A model generated the notes under the pieces. That model had not been told where the DNA came from. It searched no databases and was given only the letters and a program-made list of their open reading frames with translations. The position numbers and the translations under genes are program-made. Below are positions 8,527-16,889 of a DNA stretch of 64,000 nt, piece after piece. The stretch's first letter is position 1. Every line of letters starts with the position of its first letter. The DNA is from Eggerthia catenaformis OT 569 = DSM 20559. GTDB taxonomy: Bacteria > Bacillota_I > Bacilli_A > Erysipelotrichales > Coprobacillaceae. Where the stretch lies: positions 103,601 to 167,600 of the forward strand of contig NZ_KB446647.1 of NCBI RefSeq assembly GCF_000340375.1, in the 5' to 3' direction.

Positions 8527-8568
8527 TATATTTTTATTGTATAAGTAAAGAAGTATAAGATCATTCTC

Positions 8569-8597
8569 TTGACTTTACACTTCTTTAGATGTTTAAT
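8569..8597 (+). promoter_or_regulatory. Promoter and leader hairpin before the V-ATPase-I-like gene
   Basis: TTGACT (8569-8574), a 17-base spacer, TTTAAT (8592-8597). The short leader then holds a perfect inverted repeat ATAAAGAT/ATCTTTAT (8607-8626) directly before the GGGGGA ribosome site, which it could mask. The promoter overlaps the right arm of an imperfect hairpin (AAAGAAGT/ACTTCTTT, about 8546-8586) that may end tag transcription. Confidence 0.65.
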
Positions 8598-8637
8598 TGT
8601 TGCGTTATAAAGATAGATATCTTTATGGGGGAACACT

Positions 8638-9948
8638 ATGGCAATTGAAGCAATGAAAATAATGAATATAAGATTTTCTAGAAATAATCTTATTGATATA
8701 CTTATAAGAATTGACGAACTTAAAGATTTTTATCCTATCTTATCAGAAAAAATTGCTAATGATGTAAAAAATGTTCATCAGATGAAAATCTCTCATCAGT
8801 ATCAGGATATTATGGCACATATTCATAATATTATCCATAATCTGGATTATCAGATAGAAACATCTCTTATTCCCGATCATCGTATGAATACATTAGAAGT
8901 TAATGCCTATCTTGATAAATTGGATATAAGGATAGAAGAGATTCATAAGATTAGACAAAATATTATTGATGATAAAAAAGAAAATGAAGAAGTCATTGAA
9001 TTTCTTAACAAGTTTATAAGTAAAGATATTAATGTAGAAGCATTGATGGATTGTCAGTATGTTACTGTTCGATTTGGATATTTAGATAATAGCCGGATGG
9101 ACAATCTTCAGTATTATTTGGAAAAGCCTTTTATTTTCGATACTGTTTTAAAGGGGGCTAAGGTTACATGGTGCTATTATGCTGTTACAAATGGAATGAG
9201 AGGAGAAATAGATAATCTTTTTAAAGCTCTTGATTTTCATGAAGTATCTATTCCTCATATTGTTCATGGTACTAATACTGATGCTTTAAGAGAATTAAAT
9301 GAAGAAGTACAGGCTATGGATGATTATATTTTTCATATGGATCAGAAGTTAAATATATTAAAAGAAGAGGAAAAACAGACTTTAACTAAATATTACAGTA
9401 CATCATCATTCTTAAATCATTTAGAAGAGATGAAAAAGTATGTTACCGATTATCAGTCTGTTCTTTCTATATCAGGATATATTAAAGAAAAAAGATATAA
9501 AGATATTGAGAAGCATTTTTTGGGCATAGAAGATGTTGAATTTTCTATTCTTCCTCCAGAGATTGTTAAAGACTTTAAAGAAGTGCCTGTATTTACTGAT
9601 AATCCACCTTATATCTCATGCTTTGAAGGTATTTCCAGACCATCGTATTCAAATCAGAGAGATTTAACGGTTTATTATATGCTTCTTTATTTGATTGTCT
9701 TTATGTTTGGTTTCGGTGATTTTGCTTTAGCTGCTCTGCTTCTTATTTACGGTATTGCAAGTAAAAGGCTGCTAATAAAAGAATTAGGATTGGCAGCTTT
9801 ATTAGGCGGCTTATTATATGGAACCTGCAGTTATTTTTATTCATTATATTATGTAGTAGATATGCCTTTATTTTTCCGCTTGGCAGGAGGTGTTATTATA
9901 CTTGTGCTGGGACATTTTGTTTTAAAGCTTATTCAAGGGAAAGAATAA
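8638..9948 (+). CDS. Shortened V-type ATPase subunit I (a-subunit) homologue, orphan
   Basis: The protein has 436 residues. The start MAIEAMKIMNIRF matches the opening of prokaryotic V-ATPase subunit I. The first 330 residues have its layout of two alpha/beta lobes joined by long helices. The membrane entry segment reads PVFTDNPPYISCFEGISRPSY and is followed by FGFGD, recalling the P..LKN..FEP...YG.P.Y and FG...GD signatures. Only about four membrane helices follow (about 350-430), against seven or eight in full-length subunits of about 650 residues. The conserved arginine half-channel region is therefore absent or cannot be recognised. No other V-ATPase subunit lies nearby and it has its own promoter and terminator. 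A proton channel role is doubtful. Confidence 0.7.
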   Translation: MAIEAMKIMNIRFSRNNLIDILIRIDELKDFYPILSEKIANDVKNVHQMKISHQYQDIMAHIHNIIHNLDYQIETSLIPDHRMNTLEVNAYLDKLDIRIEEIHKIRQNIIDDKKENEEVIEFLNKFISKDINVEALMDCQYVTVRFGYLDNSRMDNLQYYLEKPFIFDTVLKGAKVTWCYYAVTNGMRGEIDNLFKALDFHEVSIPHIVHGTNTDALRELNEEVQAMDDYIFHMDQKLNILKEEEKQTLTKYYSTSSFLNHLEEMKKYVTDYQSVLSISGYIKEKRYKDIEKHFLGIEDVEFSILPPEIVKDFKEVPVFTDNPPYISCFEGISRPSYSNQRDLTVYYMLLYLIVFMFGFGDFALAALLLIYGIASKRLLIKELGLAALLGGLLYGTCSYFYSLYYVVDMPLFFRLAGGVIILVLGHFVLKLIQGKE

Positions 9949-9960
9949 TCTATCTATATA

Positions 9961-9996
9961 AAAAGCAGAAGAATCATATGATTTTCTTCTGCTTTT
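9961..9996. terminator. Bidirectional terminator between the V-ATPase-I-like gene and tRNA-Leu
   Basis: AAAAGCAGAAGAA (9961-9973) pairs exactly with TTCTTCTGCTTTT (9984-9996). The A-run and T-run on either side suit both converging transcripts. Confidence 0.85.
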
Positions 9997-10007
9997 AGTT
10001 TAATAAA

Positions 10008-10094
10008 TGGTGCCCCGGGCCGGACTCGAACCGGCATGGTTTTAAGGCCGGCAGATTTTGAGTCTGCTGCGTCTACCAATTTCGCCACCGGGGC
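10008..10094 (-). tRNA. tRNA-Leu (anticodon CAA, reads UUG)
   Basis: The minus strand folds as a class II tRNA. The acceptor arms are GCCCCGG/CCGGGGC, and the D-arm TGGCGAAATTGGTAGACGC is typical of Leu. The anticodon stem-loop is GCAGA-CTCAAAA-TCTGC, giving CAA. A variable arm follows (CGGCCTTAAAACCATG), then the T-arm CCGGTTCGAGTCCGG. A73 and CCA are encoded (10011-10008). Confidence 0.96.
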
Positions 10095-10258: not shown

Positions 10259-11830
10259 ATGAAAACATTTATTAAAATGCTATTTTCTAGAAGAGTTTTA
10301 TTTGGAATTCAAATGGCTATTAGCTTAATTCTCTTACTTGTTTTAGGGATTAATAAGTTTTTGCCATTAAAATATTATATTATTGTTGTTATTATACTAT
10401 TAGTTCTACCATTTTTATTTTATCGTCTGGAAAGAGGAAAAAGACGTTATGAGGATGGAAAAAGTCATCATAAGGATACGCCGGCAACTATAACTGCTAA
10501 GTTTTTTCATGTGCTTTTATGTGCTGTACTTGTTTTTGCAAATTACTATGTAATTATCACAAATGGCTTTATTAATTCCATTTCTAATAAGACATCTGCT
10601 AATGTTAAATATAGTGTTATTACTTTAAAAGAAGATGAAGCAGTTTCTATTAATGATACAAGCGGGTATACATTTGGCTATCTGACAAGTTCTAATACAA
10701 CAGAAACTAATAGGCTTAATCAGATTGTTACTAAAGTTAATAATGATTTGAATACAACTGTTGAAACTTCTGCAAAGGATTCTTATAAGAATATTTTAAG
10801 TGCTCTATATGAGGGAGATGTTGGAGCAATTATTATTAATGAGACAGATCGTGATAATTATATAAAAGTTAAACCTAAATTTAATAAAGAAACCAAGGTT
10901 ATAAAAAACTATTATATTAAGATTGCAACCAGCAAAGCAAAAAGAACTGAAGTAACAACTAAGCCTTTTCATATACTGATTTCCGGGATAGATACTTATG
11001 GAAAGATAGATGAAGTTTCGTTATCAGATGTAAATATACTGGCTACCGTTAATCCGGAGACAAAACAGGTTCTTTTAACATCTATACCTAGAGATTATTA
11101 TGTAGATATTTATGAAAATGCAAAGAGTCGGACGATTGGGAAAGATAAGCTGACTCATTCTGCCAAAAATGGCATTTCATCAACACAGGCAACTATTGAA
11201 AAACTGCTTGGTCTTGATATTAATTATTATTTGAAGATGAATTACACATCATTCTTAAAAGTTATTGATGCGATAGGCGGAATTGATATTTATAATCCTT
11301 ATGGAGAATTTACTACAAGAGTAAACTTTTATAAGATTAAAGCAGGATGGAATCATTTTGATTCTAAACATGCTTTAGCATTTGTTAGAGAAAGGCATTC
11401 ATTCGGGAATGGTGATCGTATCAGAATGCAGAATCAGCAGATGATGATTAAGGCTATTGTTAAGAAGATGACAAGTGCTGCCGGTCTTACAAATCTAAAT
11501 AATGTTTTTAATGCTGTTGCTGATAGTATGGAAACAAATATGTCAGGTAATGAAATCAAATCACTGATTAATTTTGAAATTGATACAGCAGCGGTGTGGG
11601 ATATTCAATCTTATCATTTAGATGGAACAAATCAGCGTCAGAAAGTATTCGCTATGGTTAAATCATTTAATCCAAATGGTCTTTATGTAATGATGCCTTC
11701 CCAGCAGACAATTACAACTGCTAAAGGATATATCAACCAGATGATGCGTAATGAGAGAGTAAAAGTAAGTATCAAAGATGAAAAAGCGGTAGCTGATCCT
11801 AAAGCTAATGATAAATATCGAAAAAAATAA
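10259..11830 (+). CDS. LytR-CpsA-Psr (LCP) family cell-wall polymer ligase
   Basis: The protein has 523 residues. Three N-terminal membrane helices lie at about 14-30, 38-56 and 81-100. An accessory extracellular region (about 110-225) comes next, then the LCP domain (about 235-400). LCP marks are FHILISGIDTYG, LSDVNILATVNP, LTSIPRDYYVDI with the conserved Arg, DKLTHSAKNG, INYYLKMNYTSFLKVIDAIGGI, and the Arg-rich ALAFVRERHSFGNGDRIRMQ. LCP enzymes attach teichoic acids or capsule chains from undecaprenyl-phosphate carriers to peptidoglycan outside the membrane. The gene stands alone, closed by a terminator. Confidence 0.93.
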   Translation: MKTFIKMLFSRRVLFGIQMAISLILLLVLGINKFLPLKYYIIVVIILLVLPFLFYRLERGKRRYEDGKSHHKDTPATITAKFFHVLLCAVLVFANYYVIITNGFINSISNKTSANVKYSVITLKEDEAVSINDTSGYTFGYLTSSNTTETNRLNQIVTKVNNDLNTTVETSAKDSYKNILSALYEGDVGAIIINETDRDNYIKVKPKFNKETKVIKNYYIKIATSKAKRTEVTTKPFHILISGIDTYGKIDEVSLSDVNILATVNPETKQVLLTSIPRDYYVDIYENAKSRTIGKDKLTHSAKNGISSTQATIEKLLGLDINYYLKMNYTSFLKVIDAIGGIDIYNPYGEFTTRVNFYKIKAGWNHFDSKHALAFVRERHSFGNGDRIRMQNQQMMIKAIVKKMTSAAGLTNLNNVFNAVADSMETNMSGNEIKSLINFEIDTAAVWDIQSYHLDGTNQRQKVFAMVKSFNPNGLYVMMPSQQTITTAKGYINQMMRNERVKVSIKDEKAVADPKANDKYRKK

Positions 11831-11856
11831 GAAGTCACTATGTGACTTCTCTTTTT
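11830..11856 (+). terminator. Intrinsic terminator after the LCP gene
   Basis: AGAAGTCAC (11830-11838), loop TAT, GTGACTTCT (11842-11850), then CTTTTT. It separates the LCP gene from the aro operon that starts 20 bases later. Confidence 0.8.
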
Positions 11857-11876
11857 CAAATAGGAAGGATAGTAAT

Positions 11877-12932
11877 ATGGAAATAAAAGTTGCATTAGAG
11901 AAAGACAGTTATTCAATTATTATTGAACAAGGATTAATAAATAATTTAAAAGCATATGTTTCTGATGTTTTTAAAGGGCAGAAAATCATGATTATTTCTG
12001 ATGATCATGTTTTTCCGCTATATGGAAAAAAGGTTAAAGAACAATTAAAAGATTATCAGGTTAATGAAATAGTTATTCCACATGGAGAAACCTCTAAAAG
12101 ATTTGATATTCTGCCATCTTTATATACACAGCTTCTCGATTATCATATAACTCGTACTGATCTTATTATTGCATTAGGAGGAGGAGTTATTGGAGATTTA
12201 GCCGGCTTTACAGCGGCTACTTATTTAAGAGGAGTGGCTCTGATACAAATTCCTACTTCTCTTCTTGCTCAGGTTGATTCCAGTGTAGGAGGAAAAACTG
12301 GCGTTGATCTTGCACAAGGCAAGAATCTTGTTGGCGCTTTTAAGCATCCGATGCTTGTTCTGATTGATCCATTAACCTTAAAAACATTGGATCCTCATTT
12401 TATTAAAGATGGAATGGGAGAAGTTATTAAGTACGGATGTATTAAAGATAAGCATTTATTTCATCAGCTTTTAAGCTATAGCTCGTTTGATGATTTATAT
12501 CAGGATATTGATAGTATTATTTATCAGTGTATTAATATCAAAAGAGAAGCAGTAGAGAAAGATCTTTTTGATTTTGGTGATCGTTTAATGCTTAATTTTG
12601 GACATACTATCGGTCATGCGATTGAGCAGTATTATCATTATGAAAAGTATTCACATGGTGAAGCTGTATCTATAGGTATGTGTGCAATGACTGCTATTTC
12701 TGAAGAGATGAATCTTACTAAGAAAGGAACATTAGAAAAGATAAAAGCTTGTTTGAATCTTTATGGTTTGCCTGTAACTGCTCATTTATCTCCAAATGAT
12801 TTAATCAAGGCGATTTCTTTAGATAAAAAGAATATTCATAATACTTTTTCATTTGTTTTGTTAAAAGAAATAGGTGAATCATTTATCTATAAGCATAACT
12901 ATAATCTTATTCTTTCATTAGAGGAGGTTTAA
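11877..12932 (+). CDS. aroB: 3-dehydroquinate synthase
   Basis: The protein has 351 residues from the ATG after AGGAAGGAT. A longer in-frame start would run through the terminator. NAD-binding glycines are in LGGGVIGDLAGFTAATYLRG, and the substrate loop is SSVGGKTGVDL. The zinc ligands sit in GEVIKYG, NFGHTIGHAIEQ and YSHGEAVSIGM. It makes 3-dehydroquinate from DAHP, step 2 of the shikimate pathway. It is the first gene of a tight operon with aroA, aroC, pheA, aroK, thyA, dfrA and plsC. DAHP synthase, aroD and aroE are not in the window. Confidence 0.95.
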   Translation: MEIKVALEKDSYSIIIEQGLINNLKAYVSDVFKGQKIMIISDDHVFPLYGKKVKEQLKDYQVNEIVIPHGETSKRFDILPSLYTQLLDYHITRTDLIIALGGGVIGDLAGFTAATYLRGVALIQIPTSLLAQVDSSVGGKTGVDLAQGKNLVGAFKHPMLVLIDPLTLKTLDPHFIKDGMGEVIKYGCIKDKHLFHQLLSYSSFDDLYQDIDSIIYQCINIKREAVEKDLFDFGDRLMLNFGHTIGHAIEQYYHYEKYSHGEAVSIGMCAMTAISEEMNLTKKGTLEKIKACLNLYGLPVTAHLSPNDLIKAISLDKKNIHNTFSFVLLKEIGESFIYKHNYNLILSLEEV

Positions 12933-12933
12933 T

Positions 12934-14190
12934 ATGTCTTCTATTACTTTAAATCGTACTTTATTAAAGGGAGTTATTCAGGTGCCTACAAGCAAGTCAC
13001 TTGCACATCGAGCTATTATTATTGCAGGATTATGTGAGGAAGAATCATTAATCAGAAATGTTTCTTTTTCTAAAGATATTGAAGCAACACTTAGCGGTAT
13101 GCAGTCTTTAGGTGCTAATATATTTATTGATGAAAATGGCATTCATATTCAACAAGGGAATCAGTCAAGTGGATCAGCTGTAATAGATGCTTATGAATCA
13201 GGATCAACCTTAAGATTTCTTATTCCATATAGTCTTATTCATAAGAATAAGGTTCATTTTATTGGTCACGGAAAACTAGGAATACGTCCTTTAGAAGTTT
13301 ATTATGATCTTTTCAGAAAGCAGAATATAAAGTATCGGACAAAAAAGGATAAGCTTGATTTAATGATTGAAGGACAGTTAAAAGCAGATAGATTTCAAAT
13401 TCCCGGCAATATTTCATCACAGTTTATTACCGGATTAATGATTGCCTGTTCGCAGCTTGATCAGGATAGTTTAATTGAAGTGACATCACCTTTAGAATCA
13501 GAGGCTTATGTTCAGCTGACAATGGATGTACTAAAAGAGTTTGGCATAGTTGTTACTAAAAATGAGACATCTTATTCTGTTTTAGGAAATCAGAAAGGAA
13601 AAGCTTGTGAATATGAAGTAGAAGGTGATTTTTCACAGGCTGCTTTTTTCTTGGTAGCTGATGTACTGGGAGCTGATATTACAATTAATAATTTAAACTT
13701 AAAAAGTCATCAGGCTGACAGATCTGTCATTGATATATTAGAAAGAATGGGTGCAGAATTAATAAAAGATAAAAATGGATATAGAATGAAAGCAGAACAT
13801 CTTCATTCTATTGATATTGATGCTTCTTCCTGTCCTGATATTATACCGGTTATTTCCTTGACTTGTTTAAAAGCGGAAGGAACTTCACATATTTATAATG
13901 CGAAAAGATTACGTTATAAAGAGTGTGATCGTTTGAGAGCAATCTGTGAAGTTATTGGACAATCGGGAGGAATAGTAACTGAAAAAGAAGATGAAATTAT
14001 GATTACCGGTGGCGGAGCTCTTAAAGGCGGTATTTATTCTGATTATAATGATCACCGTATGGTTATGATGGAAGCTGTTTTAGCAATGATGACGGAAACA
14101 CCGGTTACTATTAAAAATTGGGAATGTGTCAGTAAAAGCTATCCGGATTTTTTTGAAGATTATAAAAAACTGGGAGGATGTATAATATGA
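12934..14190 (+). CDS. aroA: 3-phosphoshikimate 1-carboxyvinyltransferase (EPSP synthase)
   Basis: The protein has 418 residues. The catalytic Lys is in PTSKSLAHRAII and the first substrate loop is ESGSTLRFL. The family signature RYKECDRLRAI, the DYNDHRMVMMEAVLA motif and the final KSYPDFFEDYK are all present. It joins PEP to shikimate-3-phosphate. It starts one base after the aroB stop, with GAGGAGG upstream, and overlaps aroC by ATGA, so the genes are translationally coupled. Confidence 0.95.
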   Translation: MSSITLNRTLLKGVIQVPTSKSLAHRAIIIAGLCEEESLIRNVSFSKDIEATLSGMQSLGANIFIDENGIHIQQGNQSSGSAVIDAYESGSTLRFLIPYSLIHKNKVHFIGHGKLGIRPLEVYYDLFRKQNIKYRTKKDKLDLMIEGQLKADRFQIPGNISSQFITGLMIACSQLDQDSLIEVTSPLESEAYVQLTMDVLKEFGIVVTKNETSYSVLGNQKGKACEYEVEGDFSQAAFFLVADVLGADITINNLNLKSHQADRSVIDILERMGAELIKDKNGYRMKAEHLHSIDIDASSCPDIIPVISLTCLKAEGTSHIYNAKRLRYKECDRLRAICEVIGQSGGIVTEKEDEIMITGGGALKGGIYSDYNDHRMVMMEAVLAMMTETPVTIKNWECVSKSYPDFFEDYKKLGGCII

Positions 14191-15260
14191 GTGCAAACTG
14201 GGGAGTACATATTGAATTATCTATATTCGGAGAAAGCCATGGCAAAGTTGTTGGCGTTAATATAGGTCATCTGCCGGCAGGCATTAAATTAGACTGGGAT
14301 TTTATAAATCGTGAGATGTCTAGAAGGACCCCCGGTAAGAATAATTTATCTACTTCACGCAAAGAAACTGATCAAGTTGAAATAATAAGTGGTGTTATTG
14401 ATGATATAACTACAGGTGCACCGTTATGTGCTATTATTTATAATACATCTGCTCATTCTAAAGATTATGAAGAATTAAAAACAAAGATGAGACCGGGACA
14501 TTCTGATTACCCTGCTTATGTGAAATATCAGGGTTTTAATGATATCAGAGGAGGAGGTCATTTCTCTGCTCGAGTAACTGCACCTCTTGTTTTTGCAGGA
14601 GCTTTATGTAAGTTGATTTTAAAAACAAAAGGAATAGAAGTCTATTCTCATATTCTTTCTATTAAAGATATTAAAGATGATCATTTTCCTTTGTTTTTAA
14701 CATCACAAATGATTGATAATTTAATGCAGAAAGAATATCCTGTTATTAATGATGATATTTATAAGCAAATGAAAGAACGAATTTTTGAAGCAAGAAAAAA
14801 TCAAGACAGCGTAGGAGGAAAAATAGAGTGTATGGTAACAGGATTACCGGCCGGCATTGGGAACCCTTTCTTTGATTCTGTAGAATCTCATTTGTCATCA
14901 CTGCTTTTTTCTATTCCGGCAGTTAAAGCTATTAGTTTTGGTGATTTAGATGATATTACTCGGTATTCGGGCAGCTTTACTAATGATGCTTATTATTATG
15001 AAGAGAATAAGGTTCTATGCAAGACAAATCATAATGGAGGAATAATCGGCGGTATTACAAATGGAATGCCTTTATTATTTACTCTTGGTATTAAGCCTAC
15101 ACCTTCTATTTCTCGTTTACAGGATACAGTAGATATTAGTAGTCATACCAATACCTCATTAAAGATTATAGGAAGGCATGATCCATGTGTTGTCTTACGA
15201 GCAAGTGTTATTGTTGAGGCAATGACTGCCATTGGGCTTTTGGATCTATTGAATATATGA
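14187..15260 (+). CDS. aroC: Chorismate synthase
   Basis: The protein has 357 residues from the ATG that overlaps the aroA stop (ATGA), ten bases after GGGAGG. The in-frame ATG at 14178 touches the ribosome site. Signatures are IFGESHGKVVGV, SRRTPGKNNLSTSRKETD, the RGGGHFSARVTAPLVFAG segment, GGIIGGITNGMPL and the C-terminal RHDPCVVLRASVIVEAM. It removes phosphate from EPSP to make chorismate, using reduced FMN. No flavin reductase is next to it. Confidence 0.95.
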   Translation: MSANWGVHIELSIFGESHGKVVGVNIGHLPAGIKLDWDFINREMSRRTPGKNNLSTSRKETDQVEIISGVIDDITTGAPLCAIIYNTSAHSKDYEELKTKMRPGHSDYPAYVKYQGFNDIRGGGHFSARVTAPLVFAGALCKLILKTKGIEVYSHILSIKDIKDDHFPLFLTSQMIDNLMQKEYPVINDDIYKQMKERIFEARKNQDSVGGKIECMVTGLPAGIGNPFFDSVESHLSSLLFSIPAVKAISFGDLDDITRYSGSFTNDAYYYEENKVLCKTNHNGGIIGGITNGMPLLFTLGIKPTPSISRLQDTVDISSHTNTSLKIIGRHDPCVVLRASVIVEAMTAIGLLDLLNI

Positions 15261-16366
15261 AGTTAGATAAAATTAGAAAAGAGATAGATGAGATTGATTC
15301 AGTTATGCTTAATCTTTTTGAAAAAAGAATGCATCTGAGTAAAGAAGTTGCTGATTATAAGATTAAGAATCATATGGAGATTTTTCAAAAAGATAGAGAA
15401 CAGGAAGTATTAGAAAAGAATCTTAATAAACTGGATGATAAGAATCTTTATAATTATGCCAGAAACTTTATTTTACAGAATATGAATCTTTCTAAAAGAT
15501 ATCAGGCAACATTCTTAAAACAGGAAGAACTTCCTTTTGATTCAGTAAAAAAAGATCATTTAGTTATAGGATATCAGGGGATTCCGGGATCATTTAGTCA
15601 TCAGGCTGTGAATACATATTTTAAAGAAGGAAAGCAGAAACACTATGATAGTTTTGAAGATGTCTTTAAGGCTTTGGGGAATCATGAGATAGATTATGGT
15701 GTATTGCCATTAGAGAATTCTACAACGGGTGCTATTAATGATAATTATGATCTTATTACAGAATATGGATTTTATATTGTTGGAGAACAATCATTATCTG
15801 TTGGTCAGCATCTTCTTGGAGTCAAAGGAAGCCATTTAAAAGACATTAAAAAAGTATATTCACATCCACAGGGAATTTTACAGTCTTCACGTTTTTTGCA
15901 TAGTCATCATATAAGTTCTGAAGCTTATCCTAATACTGCAATGGCTGCTAAAATGATTGCCTGTCTGCAAAATAAGCAACTGGGGGCTATTGCTTCTTTA
16001 GAAGCAGCTAAACTTTATGGATTAGATATAATAGCTACTCATATAGAAGATGATGATACAAATCATACACGTTTTATTATTATTGGCAGGCATTTGGAAT
16101 CTCATCAGGAGGCTTCAAGAATATCTACTGTTTTTACTTTAAGACATGCTGTTGGGGCATTATATGAAGTGATGAAGATTGTTAAGGATCATCAGATGAA
16201 TATGGCACGTATTGAATCCAGACCTATCCCTCATACGCCATGGGAATATTATTTCTATATGGATATTGACGGTAATCTTCATGATCCGGATACTTTATCA
16301 TGCATAGAAGAAATTAAAGCCTGTACATCCAGTTTTAGACTGTTAGGAAATTATCAGAGGAAATAG
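15257..16366 (+). CDS. pheA: Bifunctional chorismate mutase / prephenate dehydratase
   Basis: The protein has 369 residues. An AroQ chorismate mutase domain (1-90: LDKIRKEIDEIDSVMLNLFEKRM) comes first. A prephenate dehydratase domain follows (about 105-285: GYQGIPGSFSHQAV, PLENSTTGAIND, HTRFIIIGR), and then an ACT domain (about 290-369) with ESRPIPHTPWEYYFYMD, the phenylalanine-binding motif. It turns chorismate into phenylpyruvate and is probably feedback-inhibited by Phe. It overlaps aroC by four bases (ATGA). No tyrA-type dehydrogenase is in the operon. Confidence 0.95.
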   Translation: MKLDKIRKEIDEIDSVMLNLFEKRMHLSKEVADYKIKNHMEIFQKDREQEVLEKNLNKLDDKNLYNYARNFILQNMNLSKRYQATFLKQEELPFDSVKKDHLVIGYQGIPGSFSHQAVNTYFKEGKQKHYDSFEDVFKALGNHEIDYGVLPLENSTTGAINDNYDLITEYGFYIVGEQSLSVGQHLLGVKGSHLKDIKKVYSHPQGILQSSRFLHSHHISSEAYPNTAMAAKMIACLQNKQLGAIASLEAAKLYGLDIIATHIEDDDTNHTRFIIIGRHLESHQEASRISTVFTLRHAVGALYEVMKIVKDHQMNMARIESRPIPHTPWEYYFYMDIDGNLHDPDTLSCIEEIKACTSSFRLLGNYQRK

Positions 16367-16367
16367 T

Positions 16368-16889
16368 ATGAAAAATATTATACTTATAGGCATGATGGGA
16401 TGTGGGAAAAGCACTATTGGCAGAATGCTTGCAGAAAGAATATCATATCAGTATATTGATATGGATACTTATTTGGAAAATAAATATCATAGCACCATTC
16501 CTGAATTATTTTCTGTCTCAGAATTATATTTCAGAGATAAAGAAACTGAATGTTGTAAAGATATGGGTCATACCGATAATAAGATTATTTCTACCGGTGG
16601 AGGAGTTATTCTTAGGGAAGAAAATATGCTCTATTTAAAGAATAATGGTCTTGTTTTCTTTATCGATAGACCTGTGGAGATGATTATTAATGAACTTAAT
16701 ACTGATCATCGACCATTATTGAAAGATGGAGTTTTTAAGTTATATGATTTAGAAAAAGAAAGAAGATCTTTATATGAAAAATATGCTGATTTTATAATTA
16801 GAAATGATCAGCTATTAATTGATGTTAGAGATAAAATTATTTCTCTTTATGGGAAAAGTGAAGGAGCGAATCATGAGTCAGGCAGATAG
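16368..16889 (+). CDS. aroK: Shikimate kinase
   Basis: The protein has 173 residues. It has Walker A GMMGCGKST (residues 7-15), the shikimate-binding DMDTYLEN, STGGGVILR, and the lid with DHRPLL. It phosphorylates shikimate at O3. It begins one base after pheA and its tail overlaps the thyA start by 17 bases. Confidence 0.93.
   Translation: MKNIILIGMMGCGKSTIGRMLAERISYQYIDMDTYLENKYHSTIPELFSVSELYFRDKETECCKDMGHTDNKIISTGGGVILREENMLYLKNNGLVFFIDRPVEMIINELNTDHRPLLKDGVFKLYDLEKERRSLYEKYADFIIRNDQLLIDVRDKIISLYGKSEGANHESGR

Follow-up and report, generated by a model that had tools for sequence, protein, structure and literature searches.

The window analysed here, 64,000 nucleotides of the Eggerthia catenaformis genome, encodes a diverged paralogue of V-ATPase subunit I that lacks the defining channel features of that subunit. 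This short paralogue is called I' below. What it has kept is the cytoplasmic arm, above all the distal, stalk-binding lobe; the arm is named as the kept part, rather than a shortened membrane part, because other families have versions that consist of the arm only. In most relatives the gene lies within the V-ATPase operon, next to the gene for the full-length subunit. The reading preferred here is that I' serves as a second, pore-less stator arm, an accessory collar subunit of the cell's V-ATPase that would hold an EG stalk as subunit C does in eukaryotes. On the present analysis we give this reading about an even chance, and prefer it to a brake, an assembly factor, a role outside the V-ATPase and a neutral remnant.

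The gene, its protein and the V-ATPase of the same genome

The open reading frame at 8638-9948 is real, and its product, together with the elements around it, can be laid out as follows (window positions, all on the plus strand).

8546 to 8587, plus strand: hairpin over the -35 box (z -2.48, 4 of 200 shuffles as good)
8569 to 8597, plus strand: possible sigma-70 promoter, TTGACT-17-TTTAAT (read by eye)
8605 to 8628, plus strand: weak hairpin in the leader, ahead of the ribosome site (z -1.81, 12 of 200 shuffles as good)
8638 to 9948, plus strand: I', 436 amino acids, ATG start (open reading frame call, profile and model)
8638 to 8787, plus strand: proximal lobe, first part, residues 1-50 (arm model)
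9010 to 9273, plus strand: distal lobe, residues 125-212 (model and conservation)
9442 to 9573, plus strand: proximal lobe, second part, residues 269-312 (arm model)
9664 to 9939, plus strand: membrane part with four helices (model and hydropathy)
9961 to 9996, plus strand: terminator hairpin (z -4.56, 0 of 200 shuffles as good)

The lobes are named by analogy with those of Thermus subunit I (PMC7367684). As a single sequence the protein shows weak homology in phmmer, where the top PDB chain was 5gar_N with an E value of 0.014, and the Pfam family V_ATPase_I (PF01496) was unmatched even at E values up to 10. RNase_T and other weak Pfam matches were set aside as chance. The original prediction had called the protein a subunit I homologue from its cytoplasmic layout, to be given up if profile searches found no match to subunit I. 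Such a match exists: the NCBIfam model NF004430 finds the window protein at E 5.6e-13, and all 21 of the 21 I' members of the family Coprobacillaceae match some subunit I model of that collection. The NCBIfam equivalog cut-off is missed by I' (48 bits vs 670) and likewise by the full-length subunit I of the same genome (206 vs 777), which does pass the Pfam cut-off (75 vs 30.7). A profile built from 21 relatives retrieves Thermus subunit I from the PDB at E 4.4e-11 and Enterococcus hirae subunit I at E 4.1e-10, the latter over profile positions 77-436. An AlphaFold2 model of I' (pLDDT 82.9) superposes on Thermus subunit I (6r0z_N) with Z 16.7 over 420 aligned residues at an rmsd of 8.2, and on eukaryotic subunit a (9brb_a) with Z 16.9 over 410 residues at an rmsd of 6.1. 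Profile and fold together rule out an unrelated protein, and the original assignment stands on all three kinds of comparison.

About four membrane helices had been predicted, and four are seen both in the model (residues 344-359, 362-375, 378-394 and 411-434) and by hydropathy. Subunit I is characterised by eight, with arginines in TM7 and TM8 that point towards the c-ring. The protein stops before the part of subunit I that bears the half-channel arginines: the profile alignment with E. hirae subunit I ends at residue 467 of its 672, ahead of R573 and R629, for which an interaction with the glutamate of the c-ring is described (PMC10382590). The motifs around both arginines were found in 0 of 22 I' sequences vs 16 of 17 long subunits I from Coprobacillaceae, so the loss of the half-channel part, also foreseen from the shortened length, is confirmed.

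The gene stands apart from any V-ATPase gene, as originally described, with none among the open reading frames of window positions 1-32000. Its neighbours encode what we take, from their sequences, to be RsmF-like, DNA glycosylase (TAG)-like, LytR-like and aroB-like proteins, and further downstream, at 11808-16889, lies what is presumably a shikimate or aromatic cluster (aroB, aroA, aroC, pheA-like, aroK). A promoter, a leader hairpin and a terminator of its own had also been claimed for the gene. The terminator is well supported, with no shuffled sequence doing as well. The promoter fared less clearly: a candidate is visible by eye, but a scan with the rule that -10 position 2 be A does not return it, and that scan as a whole performs at chance (15 found vs 12.9 expected). 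A leader hairpin is present but weak. The stronger hairpin further upstream overlaps the likely -35 box and would therefore lie outside the leader; it probably belongs to the 3' end of the preceding gene rather than to a leader. A tRNA-Leu gene (anticodon caa; 10008-10094, minus strand) faces the I' terminator, which may terminate both strands, and Rfam found only this tRNA. At 25-1017 the window also encodes a membrane protein with a repeated N-terminal stretch, rich in GFN/NG.

A V-ATPase encoded elsewhere had been suspected, and the genome (1.94 Mb in 8 contigs, completeness given as 100) does hold one complete operon, G-C-I-K-F-E-A-B-D, at 326121-334564 of contig C3. Eight of its nine proteins match their Pfam families; the first, of 105 amino acids and in the G position, does not match its family. 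The operon has its own full-length subunit I of 637 amino acids, the sole further I-like gene in the genome, and because of it the idea that the V-ATPase borrows I' as its only subunit I is excluded. The genome has one E gene, so that a further stalk could be built without adding genes. In the K (c-ring) subunit of 140 amino acids (locus L003, 7404-7826) the ATP-synt_C match is confined to the second half, with one recognisable ion-binding hairpin per subunit and the first one diverged. An F-type ATPase a subunit is encoded on another contig (G000:C1:95768-96376, locus L062), and the cell therefore has both rotary enzymes.

Operon-borne and arm-only copies in related bacteria

The family sample comprised 43 Coprobacillaceae genomes, with named members including Sharpea (Coprobacillaceae in NCBI), Candidatus Stoquefichus, Massilimicrobiota and Longibaculum. 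The membrane-bearing I' occurs in 37 of them, counting a copy in G014 that is cut by a contig end, and 34 of these 37 carriers have it directly upstream of the full-length subunit I gene on the same strand, in the operon order C-I'-I. In the 18 loci where it was measured, the gap between the two genes ranges from -10 to 42 nt, with an overlap in two. Every carrier in the family also has a full-length subunit I, or pieces of it. The three exceptions to the operon position are the present genome and two Sharpea genomes (G030 and G031), in which the gene has the same neighbours as here, an rsmF-like gene on one side and an aroB-like gene on the other (seen in full in G031; the G030 contig ends before aroB). 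In a tree that leaves out one row (L076, group f1), these three copies form one clade nested among operon-borne copies, and the orphan place is therefore derived, through a single move. The description of the gene as an orphan is thus true of this genome, but reflects a derived state of its lineage and not the nature of the protein.

One family genome, G017, carries an arm-only version of 315 amino acids on a very long branch (L039, 1777-2724), in which either the membrane part was lost or the origin is a separate one; this copy, too, occupies the usual operon place. Neither form was found in five of the 43: four of these (G007, G009, G028 and G029; L045-L048) have intact V-ATPase operons running C-I, and the fifth, G008, is 69% complete and gave no match at all. 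Among the matches listed for the sister families of the order (148 genomes) the short form is absent, and all 12 sister-family operons inspected run C-I with nothing between. A sample of the class (395 genomes, 95 matched) yielded an arm-only I' before subunit I in six genomes, of which five belong to family f22 and one to f11. These proteins are 320-341 amino acids long, have no membrane helices, and all six are arranged C-I'-I; another 13 class operons lack I' (in one of them, L096, a contig end falls within C), and a further class locus is broken. A search labelled as phylum-level (392 genomes) had 62 with matches, all of the same class, and no additional arm-only carriers. Since I' is absent from the operons of four family genomes, 12 sister-family genomes and 13 others of the class, the pump works without it.

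The seven arm-only proteins, including that of G017, all end close after the proximal lobe. A tree of the arm with 75 rows, which leaves out two divergent rows of group f2 (L074 and L075) and the broken locus (L084), recovers the membrane-bearing I', all 21 of them, as a single clade (100/100) that is sister to the family's own long subunit I (97/98). The arm-only proteins of f22 and f11 fall among the long subunits I of f11, f15, f17 and f22 rather than near the membrane-bearing I'. AU tests, with groups named after the tree was seen, reject the f22 arm-only proteins as one clade (p 8e-5) and a single origin of arm-only and membrane-bearing I' (p 2e-4). Two rows, L083 (G305) and L039 (G017), sit on very long branches, and their placement is unsure. 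Gene conversion between tandem copies could give the appearance of independent origins, and it is safer to speak of at least two origins than to give an exact number.

The likely history of the membrane-bearing form would begin within the V-ATPase operon, where the subunit I gene was duplicated in tandem, either at the root of Coprobacillaceae or early in the family. The duplicate would have kept the arm and lost the membrane half-channels, and later, in the branch that comprises this genome and Sharpea, it would have moved to a transcription unit of its own beside rsmF-aroB.

A possible second collar arm and the alternatives

Conservation is concentrated in the distal lobe. At a threshold of at least 80%, 23 positions are common to I' and long subunit I, and 16 of them lie between residues 141 and 216, in the distal lobe and at its edge. 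The same lobe holds most of the residues common to I', arm-only I' and full-length subunit I (Y141, R145, G147, Y181, D192, N193, F195, F200, P206, H210 and G211). Identity among arm-only proteins is 0.51 in the distal lobe vs 0.20-0.28 elsewhere; among membrane-bearing I' the preference is slight (0.41 vs 0.28-0.40), and over the N-terminal part of the proximal lobe, at 0.40, there is none. In the five f22 genomes the arm-only protein is 65-77% identical to the long subunit I of the same genome in the distal lobe, and 28-60% elsewhere. The arm of Thermus subunit I is described as carrying two EG stalks, one of them at the distal lobe or subdomain (PMC7367684; PMC5758568), and in eukaryotes EG2 is reported to rest on the head of subunit a and the foot of subunit C, and EG3 on the head of C (PMC10352029).

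A protein with both arm lobes, free of the channel and encoded with subunit I in most relatives, is what would be expected of a second collar arm. If so, the distal lobe of I' would grip an EG peripheral stalk at its N-terminal end in the way that of subunit I does, and I' would take its place in the collar beside the arm of subunit I, giving a pump with a second collar arm. There it could support a third EG stalk in addition to the usual two, or strengthen those two, much like eukaryotic subunit C. Its helices would serve only as a membrane anchor, and are probably dispensable because other lineages have arm-only versions. A fixed stoichiometry is not enforced in the window's lineage, as the gene there is out of the operon. 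The original prediction proposed a regulator of a V-ATPase; an action on that enzyme is strengthened by the operon position in relatives, but a structural role in the collar and stalk is preferred.

A regulatory role survives best among the alternatives. I' could act as a brake or decoy that mimics the arm of subunit I, binds EG or subunit d of free Vo or V1, and holds these parts separate or locked at times when the pump ought to be off; the separate promoter in this lineage would allow it to be produced on its own. When Thermus Vo is isolated and locked, the arm of subunit a touches and locks subunit d through its distal lobe (PMC7367684), and since I' has kept this lobe, its conservation fits a brake as well. 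The independent transcription unit in this genome and the genomes that do without I' also agree with such a switch. A place between C and I in the operon of nearly all carriers fits a part rather than a switch, however, and we regard the brake as unlikely, at perhaps half the weight of the collar arm. Less probable again is an assembly factor that substitutes for subunit I while EG, d and V1 join, and is then replaced by the full-length protein. The gene is encoded just before that for subunit I, the two frames overlapping at two of the 18 measured loci, and a channel-free pre-complex would presumably not leak ions. We know of no assembly factor of this kind for V/A-ATPases, however, and I' is missing from genomes with an intact operon, so the idea seems improbable.

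A present function of I' outside the V-ATPase is harder still to believe. Its orphan position here and in Sharpea, its long branch and its fast change would suit such a departure, but the residues common with subunit I are kept, relatives retain the gene in the operon, and the family carriers have subunit I as well. A neutral leftover of a partial tandem duplication, an event that by itself leaves the truncated copy ahead of the complete gene and so accounts in one step for place and truncation, is very improbable: losses do occur, with the frame broken by a stop in G001 (L049, 11577-12740; genus coded g2) and the gene gone from other genomes, but 36 of the 37 carriers have open frames (one of them cut by a contig end), the gene outlived its relocation, and NG86 dN/dS is 0.08-0.18 in five I' pairs, with 0.08 for the orphan Sharpea pair. 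The values for two pairs of long subunit I are 0.05-0.07. I' is therefore under purifying selection, and a mutated remnant is disfavoured.

Relation to known rotary ATPases

Compared with subunit I of V/A-ATPases (Thermus thermophilus; NtpI of Enterococcus hirae), from which it derives by duplication, I' has the same two-lobed arm and the first helices with their GD motif, but not the later helices or either of the conserved arginines; it is a second gene beside a normal subunit I gene, and in other lineages consists of the arm only. The second comparison is with eukaryotic subunit C (Vma5). Subunit C is a two-lobed dumbbell with a coiled neck, a shape that I' may share, and is an extra collar protein beside subunit a, a function that is proposed here for I' in similar form. 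Subunit C is soluble, whereas I' of the window has four membrane helices and most I' found here have such helices too; the seven arm-only relatives have none. A model of the arm (pLDDT 87) matches the arm of Thermus subunit I with Z 17.3 over 306 residues at an rmsd of 5.4. Against subunit C, Foldseek gives E 3.2e-7 for 1u7l with TM-scores of just 0.25-0.28, and VIA-align gives Z 8.6 for 6wm3_O over 202 aligned residues at an rmsd of 5.6. The likeness of the modelled arm to subunit C appears modest, as a Z of 8.6 is close to what common helical arrangements reach, and is far below its likeness to subunit a. Sequence searches of the PDB with two profiles (A1 and A6, E up to 1) had no subunit C chains among their matches; A6 is insensitive, since subunit I chains also escape it. 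Filed strictly, I' stands outside the subunit C family. One review states that A- and F-type ATPases lack any homologue of subunit C (PMC6131620), and a likeness between I' and C would therefore be convergent. The same source notes a b/b' pair in chloroplast and cyanobacterial F-ATPases, likewise two non-identical stator subunits in one enzyme (PMC6131620), but this is a different protein in a different enzyme type. In the open-access literature, judged by titles and the beginnings of abstracts, nothing was found on a second subunit I in bacterial V-ATPases.

The presence of I' in the pump clusters of related bacteria suggests an additional arm in some bacterial pumps, similar to the situation in eukaryotes. 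A bolder version, that several bacterial lineages have independently built a second collar arm from the arm of subunit I, holding a third EG stalk and so reinventing the job of subunit C, is possible and rather less likely than a collar role for I' as such. Rotary ATPases are sorted by the number of their stalks, with one in F-type, two in A-type and three in V-type enzymes (PMC6131620), and a third EG stalk, if true, would contradict the textbook two for A-type and bacterial enzymes. A second arm made from subunit I would, if true, illustrate a way in which collar subunits are gained, and would do so in lineages of recent enough origin to allow enzymes with and without it to be compared. In the present genome the second arm is a separate gene, and could therefore be deleted without touching the operon.
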